From an uncultured Lactobacillus sp. (lineage in GTDB: Bacteria; Bacillota; Bacilli; Lactobacillales; Lactobacillaceae): a stretch of 40,392 bases of DNA. The notes under the pieces were generated by a model. It made no database searches and was not told the DNA's origin. It saw nothing but the letters and a program-made list of their open reading frames with translations. Shown here in pieces: positions 20,705-33,719 of the stretch. Position 1 is the first letter of the stretch. Every line of letters begins with the position of its first letter. The stretch spans positions 1 through 40,392 of the forward strand of contig CAKNLX010000010.1 in assembly GCA_930989465.1 (NCBI GenBank), given 5' to 3'. The position numbers and the translations under genes were made by a program.

Positions 20705-21445
20705 TTAATCTTTAGAAATAACTTTGCTTAAAAATTGCCGAGCACGTTCAGTATCTGGATGAGCAAAGAATTCTTCTGGCTTGCGATCTTCTAAAATATG
20801 ACCATTATCAAAGAAAATTAAGCGATTGCTTACTTCTCTAGCAAAACCCATCTCGTGGGTAACCACAACCATAGTAATGCCTTGTTCAGCAACATATCTC
20901 ATAACTTCTAAAACATCTTCAATCATTTCTGGGTCAAGGGCACTAGTTGGTTCATCAAATAAAATCACCTTAGGGTGCATTGCTAATGATCTAGCAATCG
21001 CTACTCTTTGTTTTTGTCCACCAGATAATTGACGAGGATAAGAGTCAATTTTATCGGCCATACCTACTTTTTCAAGATATTGCATCGCTACTTTACGGTT
21101 CTCATCATCAGGACGCTTTAGCACAATCTTAGGCGCCAGCATAACGTTCTCTAACACAGTGTGATTATTGTAGAGATTAAAGTGTTGGAATACCATCCCA
21201 ACATTTTTACGAATCTTATTAATATCGGTCTTTTTATCAGCCAAATCATACCCAGTTACAATTAATTGACCGCTATTAATTGGTTCCAAGCCATTCATAG
21301 TTCTAATTAAAGTACTCTTACCTGAACCAGATGGACCAATAATTGAAACCACTTGGCCTTCATCAATCTTTAAGTTAATATCCTTCAATGCATGGAGCTT
21401 TCCGTAGTACTTATCAACATGCTTAAATTCAATAATTGCTGTCAT
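20705..21445 (-). CDS. glnQ: Amino acid ABC transporter ATP-binding protein
   Basis: A 246-residue cytoplasmic ATPase, first gene of the operon. Walker A is GPSGSGKST, the signature is [16 protein letters not shown], Walker B is [14 protein letters not shown], and the switch His is in [13 protein letters not shown]. All catalytic motifs are intact. An AAGAAAGGTAG ribosome binding site precedes the ATG. About 210 bases separate it from the T-box terminator; this spacer is AT-rich with a GCTAAAA/TTTTAGC inverted repeat and no open frame that I can support. The symbol follows common usage for this family and does not prove glutamine as substrate. Confidence 0.93.
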
Positions 21446-21655: not shown

Positions 21656-21925
21656 AAAGAAAAAGTCCCTCATCCCTAAACTGGGACGAAAGACTTCTTT
21701 CCGCGGTACCACCCACATTGCCTATTAGATATAGACCTACTCATGAAGCACTATCATGCTTCACCGGTGTGGTAACGTACCGGAGACGTCTCAACCTACT
21801 CTAAGAATTGTTATTTCGGTGAGCTGCTAAAAGTGTTTTTCAATAGTTCAGGGTCTATTGGCTTTTCACTAGCACCAACTCACTGTTAGAAATAAACTAT
21901 CTACTTGTCTTTTTCATAGCCTTTT
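21656..21925 (-). promoter_or_regulatory. T-box riboswitch leader of the amino acid ABC operon
   Basis: On the minus strand the leader has the stem I elements AGTGAG (21879-21884) and GGTGCTAGTGAAAAGCC, pairing back through CTCAC. The conserved antiterminator string GGGTGGTACCGCGG follows (21701-21714). A terminator is formed by AAGTCTTTCGTCCC and GGGATGAGGGACTT with a T-rich tail (21656-21696). Uncharged tRNA binding would favour the antiterminator. The specifier region reads CGAAATAACAATTC; AAC (Asn, 21810-21812) is my best reading because T-boxes favour NNC codons and Asn control of such ABC operons has been reported in lactobacilli. AUA or ACA are alternatives. Confidence 0.93.
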
Positions 21926-22083
21926 AATTTATTTATATGTATTTAACCTTATTTTGGGATAAAAAGCAAGCAAAATTTCTTATAATTCAAAATGAATCCG
22001 TTTTTAATACAAATAAATGCTGTTAATATTCGGAAAATAGCTTAAAATATTTAGTGATATATTGAAAAACAAAGGAGTTTGAA

Positions 22084-24275: not shown

Positions 24276-24854
24276 CTAGGCAACTTTAGGTTTTAATGCT
24301 TTATCGAAAAGATTGGTAATCAATTTCACTAGGACACCATCAAACAGTAATGATGAAATCATACTTACAATAAACATCAAAATTTGTACATTAACCTGAT
24401 AATGACTCCAACCAAACAAAAAGTAACTTGGTATAAAACCACCTAAATTGGCAAAGAAAGCACCAGTCAAAACGCTCTTCCATGAGAACTTTTCATAGCG
24501 TTCTTTTTTAGGGAAAAAGCCGATCTCGTTCATTGCTCCTTGAATTAACCCCTCAAAAATAGTCAAGGCTCCCCACTGGCCACCGATCGCCATCTCAACC
24601 GTGGCAGCCAGCAATTCACCAATAGTTCCAGCTCCCTTAGTTGGTACAAAATACATCGCTAAAGGAGCAGCCATATACCATAAGCCAGTAAAAACGTTGT
24701 CAACAACCGGTGCATAACCGGTGGGTAAAAAGCTTAATTTTACTAAGTTATACACATTGTTAAAGCCATAAGTGTAAATCACACCCATGATGATCCCGAT
24801 TAAGGCAACTAAAATAACTGATTTTACATTCCATTTTGACGATCTAGTAAACAT
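24276..24854 (-). CDS. ykoE: ECF transporter S component for a thiamine precursor (YkoE family)
   Basis: A 192-residue membrane protein with about six hydrophobic segments. GLWYMAAPLAMYFVPTKGAG followed by TIGELLAATVEMAIGGQWGA is typical of YkoE, the substrate-binding component for hydroxymethylpyrimidine or thiamine. A TPP riboswitch directly upstream supports a thiamine role. In Bacillus, YkoE works with the dedicated ATPase YkoD and YkoC; neither is here, so it probably uses a shared energising module encoded elsewhere. The start ATG at 24854 is fixed by AAGGAGC, which lies inside the riboswitch expression-platform hairpin. The downstream MFS gene may be co-transcribed. Confidence 0.88.
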   Translation of the reverse strand: MFTRSSKWNVKSVILVALIGIIMGVIYTYGFNNVYNLVKLSFLPTGYAPVVDNVFTGLWYMAAPLAMYFVPTKGAGTIGELLAATVEMAIGGQWGALTIFEGLIQGAMNEIGFFPKKERYEKFSWKSVLTGAFFANLGGFIPSYFLFGWSHYQVNVQILMFIVSMISSLLFDGVLVKLITNLFDKALKPKVA

Positions 24855-24892: not shown

Positions 24893-24918
24893 CACAAATA
24901 AAAGTTAATTCTCTTGTT

Positions 24919-24998
24919 AGCACTTTCCCTTGCGCAAGTATTATCTTGTTCAGGTTCGAAGGGTATTATCTCAGCATTACGCACCCCTAGTGACATTT
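24919..24998 (-). ncRNA. TPP riboswitch (THI element)
   Basis: On the minus strand the conserved aptamer strings occur in order: GGGGTGC, GCTGAGA, ATACCCTTCGAACCTGA, GATAATACTTGCGCAAGGGA. CACT and AGTG at the ends can close the P1 stem. It precedes ykoE, so thiamine pyrophosphate would turn the gene off. A likely promoter with an extended -10 box (TGCTATACT, -10 at 25021-25026) lies just upstream. Confidence 0.95.
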
Positions 24999-30841: not shown

Positions 30842-32173
30842 ATGGACAATCACCTTAAACGCAGTATTGGCTTAGGTTCTGCACTTTCAATTATCGTTGG
30901 AACCATTATCGGTTCTGGAATTTTCTTTAAACAAGCTTCAGTTTTAGATAGCGCAGGCTCAACCTTTATGGCACTTTTAGCATGGATTTTAGCTGGGATT
31001 ATCACATTAACCGCTGGCTTAACGATTGCGGAAATCGGTGCCCAGATGCCTTATACTGGTGGACTTTACGTCTATATTGAAAAAATTTACGGCCGCGTTT
31101 TAGGTTTTATGGCTGGTTGGATGCAGGCTATTGTGTACGGTCCTGCTATGATAGCTGCAGTTACCGGTTTTTTAAGTATTATGGTGACTAATCTCTTTGG
31201 CATCGGCACCGAATGGCGTATTCCCATTGGTTTGATCACTATCATCGCTATCGGCGGTTTAAACTTTTTAGAAAATAAAGTCGGTGCAGCCTTTGCTATA
31301 ATCACTACAATTGCTAAGATGATCCCTATTTTTGCAATTATCTTCTGCGGCATCTGCTGGGGTGAGCAAAACGCTGTCGCCCAAACTGTGACTGAGCTGA
31401 ATCGATCAACAGGTGGTCTTGGCGTAGCCGTTCTCGCTGCCCTTTTTGCCTATGACGGTTGGATCTTTATTGCAAATTTAGGTGGTGAAATTAAGAATCC
31501 ACAAAAATTATTACCCAAAGCAATCATCATTGGAATCACTACAGTATTAGTAATTTACGCGTTAATTACTATTGGTATTTTTAGTTTCATCCCTGCCGAT
31601 AAAATTCATGCATTAGGTCAAAATTCAACCACTTATTTGGCTGACGCTATTCTTGGTCCAATTGGCGGTAAAGTTCTATCTGTCGGCATTATTATCTCAA
31701 TGCTAGGCACTCTCAATGGAGAAATGCTCACCTTTCCTCGTATTATTTACGCTATGGCTAAGCGCGGGGATTTGCCTTTCTCAAGATTTTTATCATACGT
31801 TACACCTAAGGGAAAAGCACCAGTTATGGCTACTATGCTCTTAATTACCTTAACTGGAATTATGATGACTTTCTTCGATCCTGATTACCTATCAAATCTC
31901 TGCGTCTTCACAATTTATAGTTTCTATGTTTTAGCATTCTTTGGCTTATTCATTTTAAGATACAAAAATAAGGACCAACGTCCTTTCAGCGTGCCATTTT
32001 ATCCCCTAATTCCTTTAGTAGCAATTGCAGGCGGGCTCTTCGTTTTAGTCAGCCAATTCTTCAATGATCCCGCTGGCGTTTTGCTTTTTACTGGAATTAC
32101 CGCTGTCGGCTGGCCAATTTTCTTTTTAGTTAAAAAGATGAGCAAAGCACAGAATACGATTATCGAAGACTAA
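30842..32173 (+). CDS. APC family amino acid permease, SteT-like serine/threonine exchanger
   Basis: A 443-residue membrane transporter with about twelve hydrophobic segments. VGTIIGSGIFFKQASVLDSA is the substrate-binding GSG motif of helix 1, and LTIAEIGAQMPYTGGLYVYI, FAYDGWIFIANLGGEIKNP and GTLNGEMLTFPRIIYAMAKR align, from memory, with Bacillus SteT, a serine/threonine exchanger. CTGGAGGACTTTC precedes the ATG. It is the first of two tandem paralogues and intact. Unlike the second it has no serine-codon leader. No strong terminator follows; only a weak A/T hairpin at 32172-32189. Serine/threonine specificity is inferred from similarity and from the leader of the second copy. Confidence 0.88.
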   Translation: MDNHLKRSIGLGSALSIIVGTIIGSGIFFKQASVLDSAGSTFMALLAWILAGIITLTAGLTIAEIGAQMPYTGGLYVYIEKIYGRVLGFMAGWMQAIVYGPAMIAAVTGFLSIMVTNLFGIGTEWRIPIGLITIIAIGGLNFLENKVGAAFAIITTIAKMIPIFAIIFCGICWGEQNAVAQTVTELNRSTGGLGVAVLAALFAYDGWIFIANLGGEIKNPQKLLPKAIIIGITTVLVIYALITIGIFSFIPADKIHALGQNSTTYLADAILGPIGGKVLSVGIIISMLGTLNGEMLTFPRIIYAMAKRGDLPFSRFLSYVTPKGKAPVMATMLLITLTGIMMTFFDPDYLSNLCVFTIYSFYVLAFFGLFILRYKNKDQRPFSVPFYPLIPLVAIAGGLFVLVSQFFNDPAGVLLFTGITAVGWPIFFLVKKMSKAQNTIIED

Positions 32174-32189
32174 AAATCTCAAATTTTTC

Positions 32190-32218
32190 TTGTTCATTTT
32201 TAATAATTATGATATTGT
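32190..32218 (+). promoter_or_regulatory. Promoter of the serine-leader transcript
   Basis: TTGTTC (32190-32195) and TATTGT (32213-32218) are 17 bases apart, placing the likely start about 20 bases before the leader ATG. The -10 match is moderate. Confidence 0.45.
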
Positions 32219-32246
32219 AATTAAAATTAATTTAGGAGATTCAATT

Positions 32247-32300
32247 ATGATTTATCAAGACACCACATTGGCATACTCATCTAGCTCAAGTTCCAACTGA
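32247..32300 (+). CDS. Serine-rich leader peptide of a transcription attenuator
   Basis: A 17-residue peptide, MIYQDTTLAYSSSSSSN, with an ideal TTTAGGAG ribosome binding site 7 bases upstream and a TGA stop at 32298-32300. Six consecutive serine codons (TCA, TCT, AGC, TCA, AGT, TCC; 32277-32294) use both serine tRNA families, and two Thr codons precede them. The serine run overlaps the first arm of a hairpin, and the stop codon touches the second arm. This is the arrangement of his/trp-type leader peptides, in which ribosome stalling at scarce aminoacyl-tRNA changes RNA folding. It lies 100 bases before a SteT-like permease gene. Function is inferred; sequence features are seen directly. Confidence 0.85.
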   Translation: MIYQDTTLAYSSSSSSN

Positions 32301-32384
32301 ACTTGAGTGATTTTGGTGTACGTAAATCAGCAGCCGGATTCACTCAATCGTTTCTAGACGATAAGGTGAATCCGGCTATTTTTG
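32285..32384 (+). promoter_or_regulatory. Serine-responsive attenuator (pause hairpin, antiterminator, terminator)
   Basis: Three alternative pairings are visible. Pause hairpin 1:2 is CTCAAGTTC (32285-32293) with GAACTTGAG (32299-32307). Antiterminator 2:3 is 32303-32317 with 32333-32347: TTGAGTGA with TCACTCAA, extended by wobble pairs over UUUGGU with GCCGGA across one U-U mismatch. Terminator 3:4 is AGCCGGATTCAC (32332-32343) with GTGAATCCGGCT (32366-32377), then TATTTTTG. A ribosome stalled on the serine codons masks arm 1 and frees arm 2 for antitermination; one at the stop codon masks arm 2 and permits termination. The logic matches classical attenuation. Confidence 0.85.
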
Positions 32385-32399
32385 TATAAAGGAGAAAAA

Positions 32400-33719
32400 A
32401 TGGACAACAAGCTTAAACGCAGTATTGGTTTCGGCTCAGCTTTTTCAATTGTAATCGGAACTATCATCGGCTCTGGTATCTTTTTTAAGCAGGCTTCTGT
32501 TCTTGACAGTGCAGGTTCAACTACAATGGCCTTACTAGCTTGGATTTTTGGTGGTCTAATTACCTTGGCTGCAGGTCTCACCATTGCCGAGATAGGGGCG
32601 CAAATGCCCTACACTGGTGGTCTTTATGTCTACATTGAAAATCTCTATGGCCGCATTTTAGGCTTTATGGCTGGTTGGATGCAGATCATCGTGTATGGTC
32701 CTGCAATTATTGCCGCCGTTGCTGGTTTTATGAGCATCATGATGACTAACTTTTTTGGTTTGAATCATTCATGGCGCATTCCTTTGGCTTTAATCACAGT
32801 TTTAGCAATTGGAATCATGAATTTCTTTGAAAATAAGGTAGGTGCAATCTTTTCGGTCATAACCACGATTGCCAAAATGATTCCGATCGCTGTAATCACC
32901 ATTTGTGGAATCTGTTGAGGTCAACAAGATGCGATTAACCAGACTGTAGCAGAGGTTAGTCAACACACTAGTAACTTCGGTGTTGCTGTTTTAGCCACTT
33001 TATTCGGCTACGATGGCTGGATTTTAATCGCTAATTTAGGCGGCGAAATGAAAAATCCCCAAAAATTATTACCTCGAGCAATCATTGCAGGAATTACAGC
33101 TGTTTTGGCTATTTATACCCTAATTACAATTGGGATTTTCCGCTTCATCCCCGCTAATCAAATTCACCAACTAGGCGAAAACACTACTACTTATCTAGCT
33201 AACGCGGTTTTCGGTGCAATCGGAGGTAAAATTCTTTCCATTGGCATCATCATTTCAATAATGGGAACATTAAATGGGAAAATGCTAACCTTTCCTAGAA
33301 TCGTTTATGCCATGGCTAAACGAGGAGATTTACCTTTTTCTAAATACTTAGCCTATGTTACTCCTAAAGGAAAATCTCCCGTTGTTGCTACTTTGTTTAT
33401 CGTCCTTTTAGCCCTTTTAATGATGATTTTCTTTGATCCAGACCACTTATCAGATCTTTGCGTCTTTACAGTTTATTGCTTCTATCTTTTAGCCTTCTTT
33501 GGAATTTTTATCCTAAGAAAAAAGAATAAAGCAGAGCGTCCTTTCAGTACTCCACTTTATCCTTTTGTGCCTATAATTGCTATTTTAGGCGGTTTGTTTG
33601 TCTTAATCAGTGAATTAATTAATGATCCAGCTGGTGTTTTACTTTTTGCTGGAATTGTCATTATTGGATTACCAATTTTTTACGCCGTTAAGCGCATGAA
33701 CAAACATCGTTTGCATTAA
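32400..33719 (+). pseudogene. Second SteT-like amino acid permease, interrupted by one in-frame TGA
   Basis: A 440-codon reading frame paralogous to the upstream permease from MDNKLKRSIGFGS to the end, with all landmark motifs (IGTIIGSGIFFKQASVLDSA, FGYDGWILIANLGGEMKNP). Codon 173 (32916-32918) is TGA, where the paralogue has TGG in CGICWGEQ; the frame is otherwise open on both sides. A TGG-to-TGA change would truncate the protein after about six helices, so it is probably inactive, unless the base is a sequencing error or is read through. A restart at the ATG at 33048 would give only the second half. AAAGGAG precedes the ATG at 32400. Transcription is governed by the serine attenuator just upstream. 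Confidence 0.88.

Follow-up and report, generated by a model that had tools for sequence, protein, structure and literature searches.

In the his, trp, leu and thr leaders of enterobacteria, a short open reading frame (ORF) with control codons is combined with mutually exclusive RNA pairings and a terminator that precedes the first gene. The mechanism of such ribosome-mediated attenuation has been set out in PMC1183508. The present analysis concerns a 40,392-nucleotide (nt) stretch of DNA from an uncultured Lactobacillus sp. (GenBank assembly GCA_930989465.1, contig CAKNLX010000010.1, positions 1 to 40,392; hereafter the window), in which a leader with six consecutive serine codons, here called the Ser element, precedes an amino-acid permease gene and very probably acts as a ribosome-mediated attenuator of transcription, responding to how much charged tRNA-Ser is available. 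The Ser element resembles the enterobacterial leaders in its control-codon ORF, its exclusive pairings and its terminator before the gene, but differs from them in having Ser control codons of both families, a permease as its target, a further outer stem (P0) and no match in Rfam.

Attenuation by leader peptides has also been described in Firmicutes, as Rli60 of Listeria monocytogenes is controlled in this way by branched-chain amino acids (PMC5864092) and the ilv-leu operon of Staphylococcus aureus by a Leu-rich attenuator (PMC5794164), both with support from mutations and reporters. These systems are like the Ser element in being leader-peptide attenuators of Firmicutes, while they concern branched-chain amino acids and a biosynthetic operon instead of Ser and a permease. 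A His leader peptide was predicted before hisS/hisZ in bacilli, in place of a T-box, and is likewise a predicted amino-acid leader peptide in Firmicutes, but it belongs to His and to tRNA synthetase genes, and in lactobacilli hisS has a T-box according to the same source (PMC2965389). In the Bacillus cereus group, the ortholog of SteT is under a Thr T-box (PMC2494555), which shares with the Ser element the kind of permease and an RNA sensor of charged tRNA, but which reads Thr, not Ser, and has no leader ORF. Outside Firmicutes, uORFC-8-2, a predicted Cys leader before cysS in Rhodobacterales (PMC8632094), is comparable as a tRNA-charging leader peptide predicted from comparative genomics, yet it differs in its amino acid, its alphaproteobacterial host and its synthetase gene. 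Among the matches listed for the open-licence literature, titles and abstract openings contained no Ser or Thr leader in lactobacilli, and within this scope the original prediction holds in its claim that no serine-specific attenuator had been described in this group; for serine transport in Lactococcus, the matches listed contained no regulatory data. The mechanism belongs to a known kind, and what is new, as far as could be seen, is its amino acid, its target gene, the group of hosts and P0.

The Ser element and its permease in the window

The features of the locus are collected in Table 1. An ORF of 17 codons, preceded by a good ribosome site and containing six Ser codons of both tRNA-Ser codon families, had been put forward by the original prediction and can be read directly in the sequence. 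By way of a chance check, 608 ATG-started ORFs of 10-40 codons were counted in the window (both strands, nested starts included), of which two have at least five Ser in eight residues, and of these two only the leader ORF has a Shine-Dalgarno (SD)-like site. The -10 region (32213-32220) reads TATTGTAA in the window and TATTCTAA in a near-identical genome, G010, and TATTCTAA is found 33-44 nt 5' of the leader ATG in 40/55 of the distinct leaders described below.

Table 1. Features of the Ser element and of the adjoining genes (window coordinates; MFE, minimum free energy structure)
Feature	Position	Strand	Basis or remark
Tandem upstream paralog, 73% identical, without Ser leader	30842..32173	+	
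Leader promoter	32190..32218	+	From sequence: -35-like TTGTTC 32190-32195, 17-nt spacer, extended -10 TGATATTGT 32210-32218
Leader SD AGGAGA	32234..32239	+	From sequence
Leader ORF encoding MIYQDTTLAYSSSSSSN, 17 codons + TGA	32247..32300	+	Sequence, comparison across loci
P0 5' strands, first leader codons	32248..32255 and 32260..32265	+	MFE
Six consecutive Ser codons TCA TCT AGC TCA AGT TCC, control codons	32277..32294	+	
P1 (Ser-codon, pause hairpin) arm 1	32284..32293	+	MFE, covariation
P1 arm 2, common to antiterminator	32299..32308	+	MFE, covariation
Antiterminator 5' strand	32303..32317	+	32304-32317 in MFE of short RNA
P0 3' strands, overlapping antiterminator strand end	32314..32319 and 32322..32329	+	MFE
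Intrinsic terminator hairpin, -28.4 kcal/mol	32332..32377	+	MFE, covariation
Antiterminator 3' strand, within terminator 5' arm	32333..32347	+	32333-32346 in MFE
A + T-run closing terminator	32378..32383	+	Sequence; T-run proper 32379-32383
Permease SD AGGAGA	32390..32395	+	Sequence
Controlled gene, putative L-type amino-acid permease (SteT/BasC-like)	32400..33719	+	Interrupted by TGA at 32916-32918

The region 32236-32400 folds with a minimum free energy of -53.6 kcal/mol, compared to a mean of -31.1 kcal/mol for its shuffles (z -5.97; 0/200 shuffles as stable), and the terminator helix consists of 32332-32344 paired with 32365-32377 plus an inner helix. When the RNA is shortened to 32280-32350, the minimum free energy structure contains the antiterminator together with a shortened P1 (z -2.19; 8/200 shuffles as stable). 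The computed antiterminator is one pair shorter than the pairing of 32303-32317 with 32333-32347 that had been proposed, and the extra pair can be added by hand. More generally, folding agrees with the proposal of three mutually exclusive pairings and with their coordinates to within 1-2 nt; the pause hairpin, the antiterminator and the terminator are thereby predicted to exclude each other, by computation only. Beyond what had been noted earlier, the minimum free energy structure contains P0, an outer stem that pairs 32248-32265 with 32314-32329.

No Rfam family, with amino-acid leaders and the T-box included, matches 32150-32420 up to E = 1, and the parts that are conserved between loci are the Ser codons and the pairing arms, whereas the spacers vary. 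Both observations stand against the view that the permease is under a T-box, whose RNA is bound directly by the tRNA, or under a ligand-binding riboswitch, with an incidental leader ORF. Amino-acid sensing by T-boxes is frequent in Firmicutes, the B. cereus group has one ahead of its SteT ortholog and another is present in the window, but as an explanation of this locus the view is extremely improbable. The T-box that had been placed at 21656-21925 does exist, with its location corrected to 21679-21926 on the minus strand, which is the only match of the T-box model (RF00230) in the window.

By its matches to models and structure chains, the controlled gene product is a putative L-type, SteT/BasC-like amino-acid permease. 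PF13520 (AA_permease_2) matches the G010 protein above its cut-off (193.5 bits), the best NCBIfam model is the L-type transporter TIGR00911 at 197.3 bits, which is below its cut-off of 701.8, and the nearest solved chains are 9h76/6f2g (313 bits), of which we take 6f2g to be BasC. Judged from its leader, the cargo of the permease would be serine. No leader was seen before the tandem paralog, and the covariance model described below (R1) gives no second match in the window genome (G000, an assembly that is 57.6% complete). Only one of the two tandem permease copies sits under the switch, and the paralog is on a long branch.

Conservation of the leader and its pairings

A protein search over 75 Lactobacillus genomes identified 25 full-length homologs of the permease at >=71% identity, a count that leaves out an 88% fragment in G013. 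All 21 orthologous loci that were fetched (21/21) have a Ser-rich leader, many of them otherwise little like that of the window. R1, which was built from 18 Lactobacillus leader loci, gave 23 matches below E = 1e-8 in the 75 genomes, 22 before orthologs and one orphan in G029, so that the element is present at 22/25 of the full-length homologs; the remaining three are tandem copies in G000, G010 and G068. With plain DNA searching, leader-like matches upstream of the permease appear in few of the 75 genomes, hence the sequence has diverged far. The orphan (L176, G029:C33:89849-89947) has a GTG start, the residues SSSS and a hairpin of its own, with no permease behind it. At another locus, L136 of L. 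johnsonii ATCC 33200, the leader-permease unit is flanked by identical tRNA-Thr (AGT) genes at 1083-1156 and 2891-2964.

By a rule that requires an ATG start and at least four Ser in eight residues, a Ser-rich leader was found at 90/106 loci with a permease start (duplicates between collections included), which correspond to 55 distinct leader-to-ATG sequences from two genera. The carriers comprise L. johnsonii, L. jensenii, L. psittaci, L. hamsteri and L. ultunensis in Lactobacillus, and Lim. reuteri, Lim. oris, Lim. vaginalis, Lim. mucosae, Lim. panis and Lim. coleohominis in Limosilactobacillus. Contigs titled as Clostridiaceae and Bacteroides metagenome-assembled genomes (L113 and L119) bear a Lactobacillus-type leader and permease and are probably mislabelled bins. 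A quick tree built from 72 chosen permease rows places most leader-less Limosilactobacillus genes near the base and requires five state changes; 15/68 of its inner branches are open, and its outgroup does not form a single clade.

The presence of a leader before more distant homologs was rejected. There, an ATG-started ORF within 300 nt upstream with at least four Ser in eight residues or six Ser/Thr in eight was sought and was present at 0/9 paralogs (35-40% identity), 0/11 homologs in one set (L063-L073) and 2/40 in another (L194-L233), the two ORFs of the last set having scattered Ser and no run of four. Looser scans of the distant homologs show some Ser- or Thr-rich ORFs, TTG-started ones included. 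R1 had no match (E up to 0.01) at 60/60 distant homolog loci, while it found 3/3 positive loci, and among 75 leader-less or control loci searched with R1 the RNA was found only in L082. An order-level search in 246 genomes under stricter filters yielded four weak matches outside Lactobacillaceae, three like ordinary terminator hairpins and one unrecognisable, and an occurrence of the element outside the family was rejected for this sample. Upstream of SteT-like permeases of another genus (L064-L070), TATAAATAT...TTTATA-like palindromes were noticed by eye, and may belong to another regulator.

Several features indicate that the leader is read as a peptide. The 55 distinct leaders each contain 4-9 Ser codons (55/55), a count that is partly built in as leaders were sought by Ser content, and the Ser run is constant across both genera while the remaining peptide varies. 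The tally of codons is TCC 118, TCT 110, TCA 88, AGT 28, AGC 21 and TCG 0, and with five codons in use it is the amino acid that is kept, not one DNA word. A TCA within arm 1 is in frame in 55/55 leaders (again partly built in by the choice for Ser; the counter-case L082 is taken up below), the codons around it are free to change (the next one encodes Ser, Ala, Val, Thr or Ile, depending on the species), and two to five Ser codons precede arm 1 in 55/55. Each of the 54 leaders with a value has its own ribosome site with 4-6 matching SD bases, where the ATG with the best SD was chosen if several were possible. Measured from a reference position 8 nt 5' of the GAG that is conserved in arm 2, the stop codon starts 7 or 11 nt downstream in 48/55 leaders and 1 nt downstream in the window.

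Pairs were counted on an alignment of 18 sequences from Lactobacillus only (A1), and none on a two-genus MAFFT alignment (A2), because A2 misplaces arm 1. In A1, P1 and the terminator have standard pairs in 91.3% of cells, compared to <=47.2% in slid controls, with double changes in 15/20 pairs (4/9 in P1 and 11/11 counted pairs in the terminator), and 0/500 shuffles match their covariation on any of five measures. The pattern that the original prediction had named as contrary to it, a permease kept while Ser codons or hairpins are lost without compensation, was accordingly absent from Lactobacillus, where leaders were found at 21/21 loci and P1 and the terminator covary. The antiterminator is paired in 84.6% of A1 cells as against <=49.1% when slid, and its register shifts across clades, as in GAGUGAUUUUGG with CCGAAUUCACUC, GGCUGAGUGAUU with AAUCAUUUGGC, GUGGUUGAGUGA with CUUUCAACCAC and AAAGCAGUUGAG with CUUAACUGCUUU; it is kept mostly through invariance or clade-wise change of register. 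The spacers between the conserved parts vary in length and sequence, while the Ser codons and the short complementary arms are constant. The P0 bases just after arm 2 are UGGUGU in the window and GUGUAC, GGCAUU or GACGU elsewhere, and their partner is formed by the first leader codons in the window and in some other Lactobacillus; many Limosilactobacillus have it upstream of the SD or overlapping it.

Terminator hairpins of -18.8 to -35.5 kcal/mol precede a T-rich tail in 54/54 leaders computed, where the tail belonged to the rule of the leader search. Together with the covariation of all counted terminator pairs, and with the permease of the window having an SD of its own, this argues against a role of the leader in translational coupling, by which it would merely help ribosomes to reach the permease start and the terminator-like hairpin would be structural. 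The distance of ~80-130 nt from the leader stop to the permease ATG on one short transcript would suit such coupling, which nevertheless has hardly any likelihood.

A proposed switch and its weak points

The anatomy of the element is conserved and covaries, from which we infer that ribosomes stall in the leader, that read-through is set by the charging of seryl-tRNA and that P0 takes part in the control. RNA polymerase would start shortly 5' of the leader ORF, followed by a ribosome. With plentiful seryl-tRNA, the ribosome would proceed to the stop codon, inside or adjacent to arm 2, and would prevent arm 2 from pairing, so that the terminator forms. When seryl-tRNA is short, the ribosome would halt on the first Ser codons and cover arm 1, upon which arm 2 would pair with the terminator's 5' arm while the 3' arm is still to be made, and polymerase would enter the permease gene. 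Given the generally known size of the ribosome footprint, arm 1 would lie under a ribosome stopped at the first Ser codons, and arm 2 under one at the stop codon. Without translation, P0 and P1 would fold and transcription would stop. P0 probably closes the region of the leader start, such that few ribosomes load and reloading is limited.

Computed folding of partial transcripts is in line with these steps. Masking of arm 1 lets the antiterminator gain more than one expected pair in 46/54 sequences and reach at least six pairs in 51/54, and in the unmasked partial transcript P1 has at least six expected pairs in 39/54.

Whatever its cause, a ribosome stall over the first codons would leave arm 2 free, and a similar switch by an upstream ORF has been proposed in Firmicutes for uORFC-6-1 before hflX (PMC8632094), which raises the alternative that the leader senses slow translation in general, e.g., under ribosome-targeting antibiotics, with the Ser run as merely a slow stretch. 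This alternative is very unlikely, as at least four Ser codons are present in 55/55 leaders (in part by choice), Thr runs precede a ThrP-like permease in a related class, no common stalling peptide is seen and the gene encodes an amino-acid permease.

A number of observations weigh against the reading of the Ser element as an attenuator that responds to charged tRNA-Ser, the support for which consists of sequence comparison and computed folding. No readable leader exists at 16/106 loci, some of them in Limosilactobacillus (L059-L062, L078, L082, L121, L122, L123, L125, L127, L130, L132, L138, L142 and L145); of these, L145 has just three upstream bases, the called permease start of L078 comes directly after an upstream stop codon, and L082 keeps the RNA (R1 57.5 bits) with the Ser run out of frame. 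The antiterminator columns in Lactobacillus were paired at least as well in 298/500 shuffles, which is because arm 2 hardly varies in A1, and against shuffled partners the antiterminator ranked from 0 to 52 of 200, a number of sequences being weak. The swapping of partners among 54 distinct sequences speaks for the pairings, with weaker mean pairing in 2000/2000 permutations for P0, P1 and the antiterminator, but these permutations ignore relatedness, and in Limosilactobacillus alone 8/2000 were as good for P0. Masking of arm 1 adds at most one antiterminator pair in 8/54 sequences, and P1 has fewer than six expected pairs in the free partial transcript in 15/54. Equilibrium folding of the full-length RNA favours the terminator in 54/54, with arm 1 masked or not, hence control must be kinetic and decided while polymerase moves, which is likewise held for classical attenuators.

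The window copy raises a further point of this kind, as its permease contains one in-frame TGA (32916-32918) that is absent from G010 (0), and with a -10 unlike that of G010 it may be decaying or hold sequence errors. The switch of this strain could be a relic before a pseudogene, which would concern the window copy only and is compatible with attenuation elsewhere. The TGA and the changed -10 speak for a relic, as does G058, where the permease contains a TAA and the Ser run is weak, whereas G010, 100% identical to the window over 32236-32405, has an open permease frame and the incomplete window assembly may hold an error; on balance a relic is the less likely case, though a serious one. The TGA itself could represent a strain difference, decay or a sequence error.

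Thr-rich sister leaders and wider meaning

Weak matches of R1 led to a second class of leaders. Of 18 places fetched, 15 came from a search of the family and three from that of the genus. The former include 12 Thr- or Thr/Ser-rich leaders and three unrelated hairpins that were rejected (G354, G322 and G323), while the latter consist of the G029 orphan and two unrelated matches (G070:C38 and G055). The sister leaders are Thr-rich with some Ser, e.g., MSNQQSIIQVTSTSTTTTSNVVEYL, and precede a different permease, for which the best NCBIfam model is NF047867, the threonine/serine transporter ThrP (555 bits, below the cut-off of 850); one leader, MYYHAQQLNRRFSTTSTSS of L180, is ahead of an L-type permease. 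A Thr-rich leader is present at 24/30 of the best ThrP-like homolog loci (L234-L263) by a strict rule and at 25/30 by a looser one, and at 2/20 homologs picked from lower in the list (L277 and L280). The class occurs in seven genera of Lactobacillaceae (codes g5, g6, g9, g14, g19, g23 and g25, where g6 is Limosilactobacillus). One exact Thr-type pattern was found in two Limosilactobacillus genomes and not in five of Lactobacillus (the window genome included), and the Thr-type loci L181, L189 and L180 have no Rfam match at gathering score.

The arm motifs and a terminator-like hairpin recur in each of the Thr-class leaders examined (27/27), all of which also show an antiterminator pairing, with energies between -8.9 and -22.0 kcal/mol. 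The antiterminator and a pairing between the SD and the Thr codons beat swapped partners in 2000/2000 permutations; the latter pairing is seen in many Thr leaders and is weak in some, e.g., L259, L260, L262 and L280. For P1, own pairs were better in 1985/2000, and the 15/2000 permutations that were as good count against the class. Short blastn matches between the Ser and Thr classes (best E 1.7e-5) and leader alignments suggest one origin, which pairing constraints common to both classes could mimic. A tentative view, in which doubt slightly outweighs confidence, is that both are one scaffold, in which ACN and UCN codons were swapped in place while the arms changed to compensate, and that this scaffold came to be combined with different hydroxy-amino-acid permeases, while P0 (in the Thr class, the pairing of SD and Thr codons) would gate ribosomes such that each transcript is tested about once.

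Elsewhere in the window, the T-box at 21679-21926 (minus strand) is upstream of what appears by eye to be an amino-acid ATP-binding cassette transporter operon, with an ATPase-like ORF at 20705-21445, and a thiamine pyrophosphate riboswitch at 24908-24998 (minus strand) is upstream of a membrane-protein-like ORF of 192 amino acids (24276-24854).

The phosphoserine transaminase gene serC (TIGR01364) was not found in 9/9 leader-bearing genomes tested, the incomplete G000 included, while the same search as a control gave a match in 11/14 known genomes, Lactococcus lactis included, four of them above cut-off. Serine uptake should hence matter to these bacteria, and dependence on outside serine or glycine is expected. 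In theory, isoacceptors lose their charge at different rates (PMC1183508), and as Ser is decoded by two unrelated sets of tRNAs, the codons of which are mixed in the leaders, the Ser element offers a natural test of that theory. If the reading is true, serine (and, in lactobacilli, threonine) joins the amino acids that are read by leader peptides, in bacteria that usually rely on T-boxes as sensors, and the leader indicates what two permease families probably carry, a point that their sequences by themselves do not settle. The element occurs in well-known lactobacilli, namely L. johnsonii, L. jensenii, Lim. reuteri and Lim. vaginalis.

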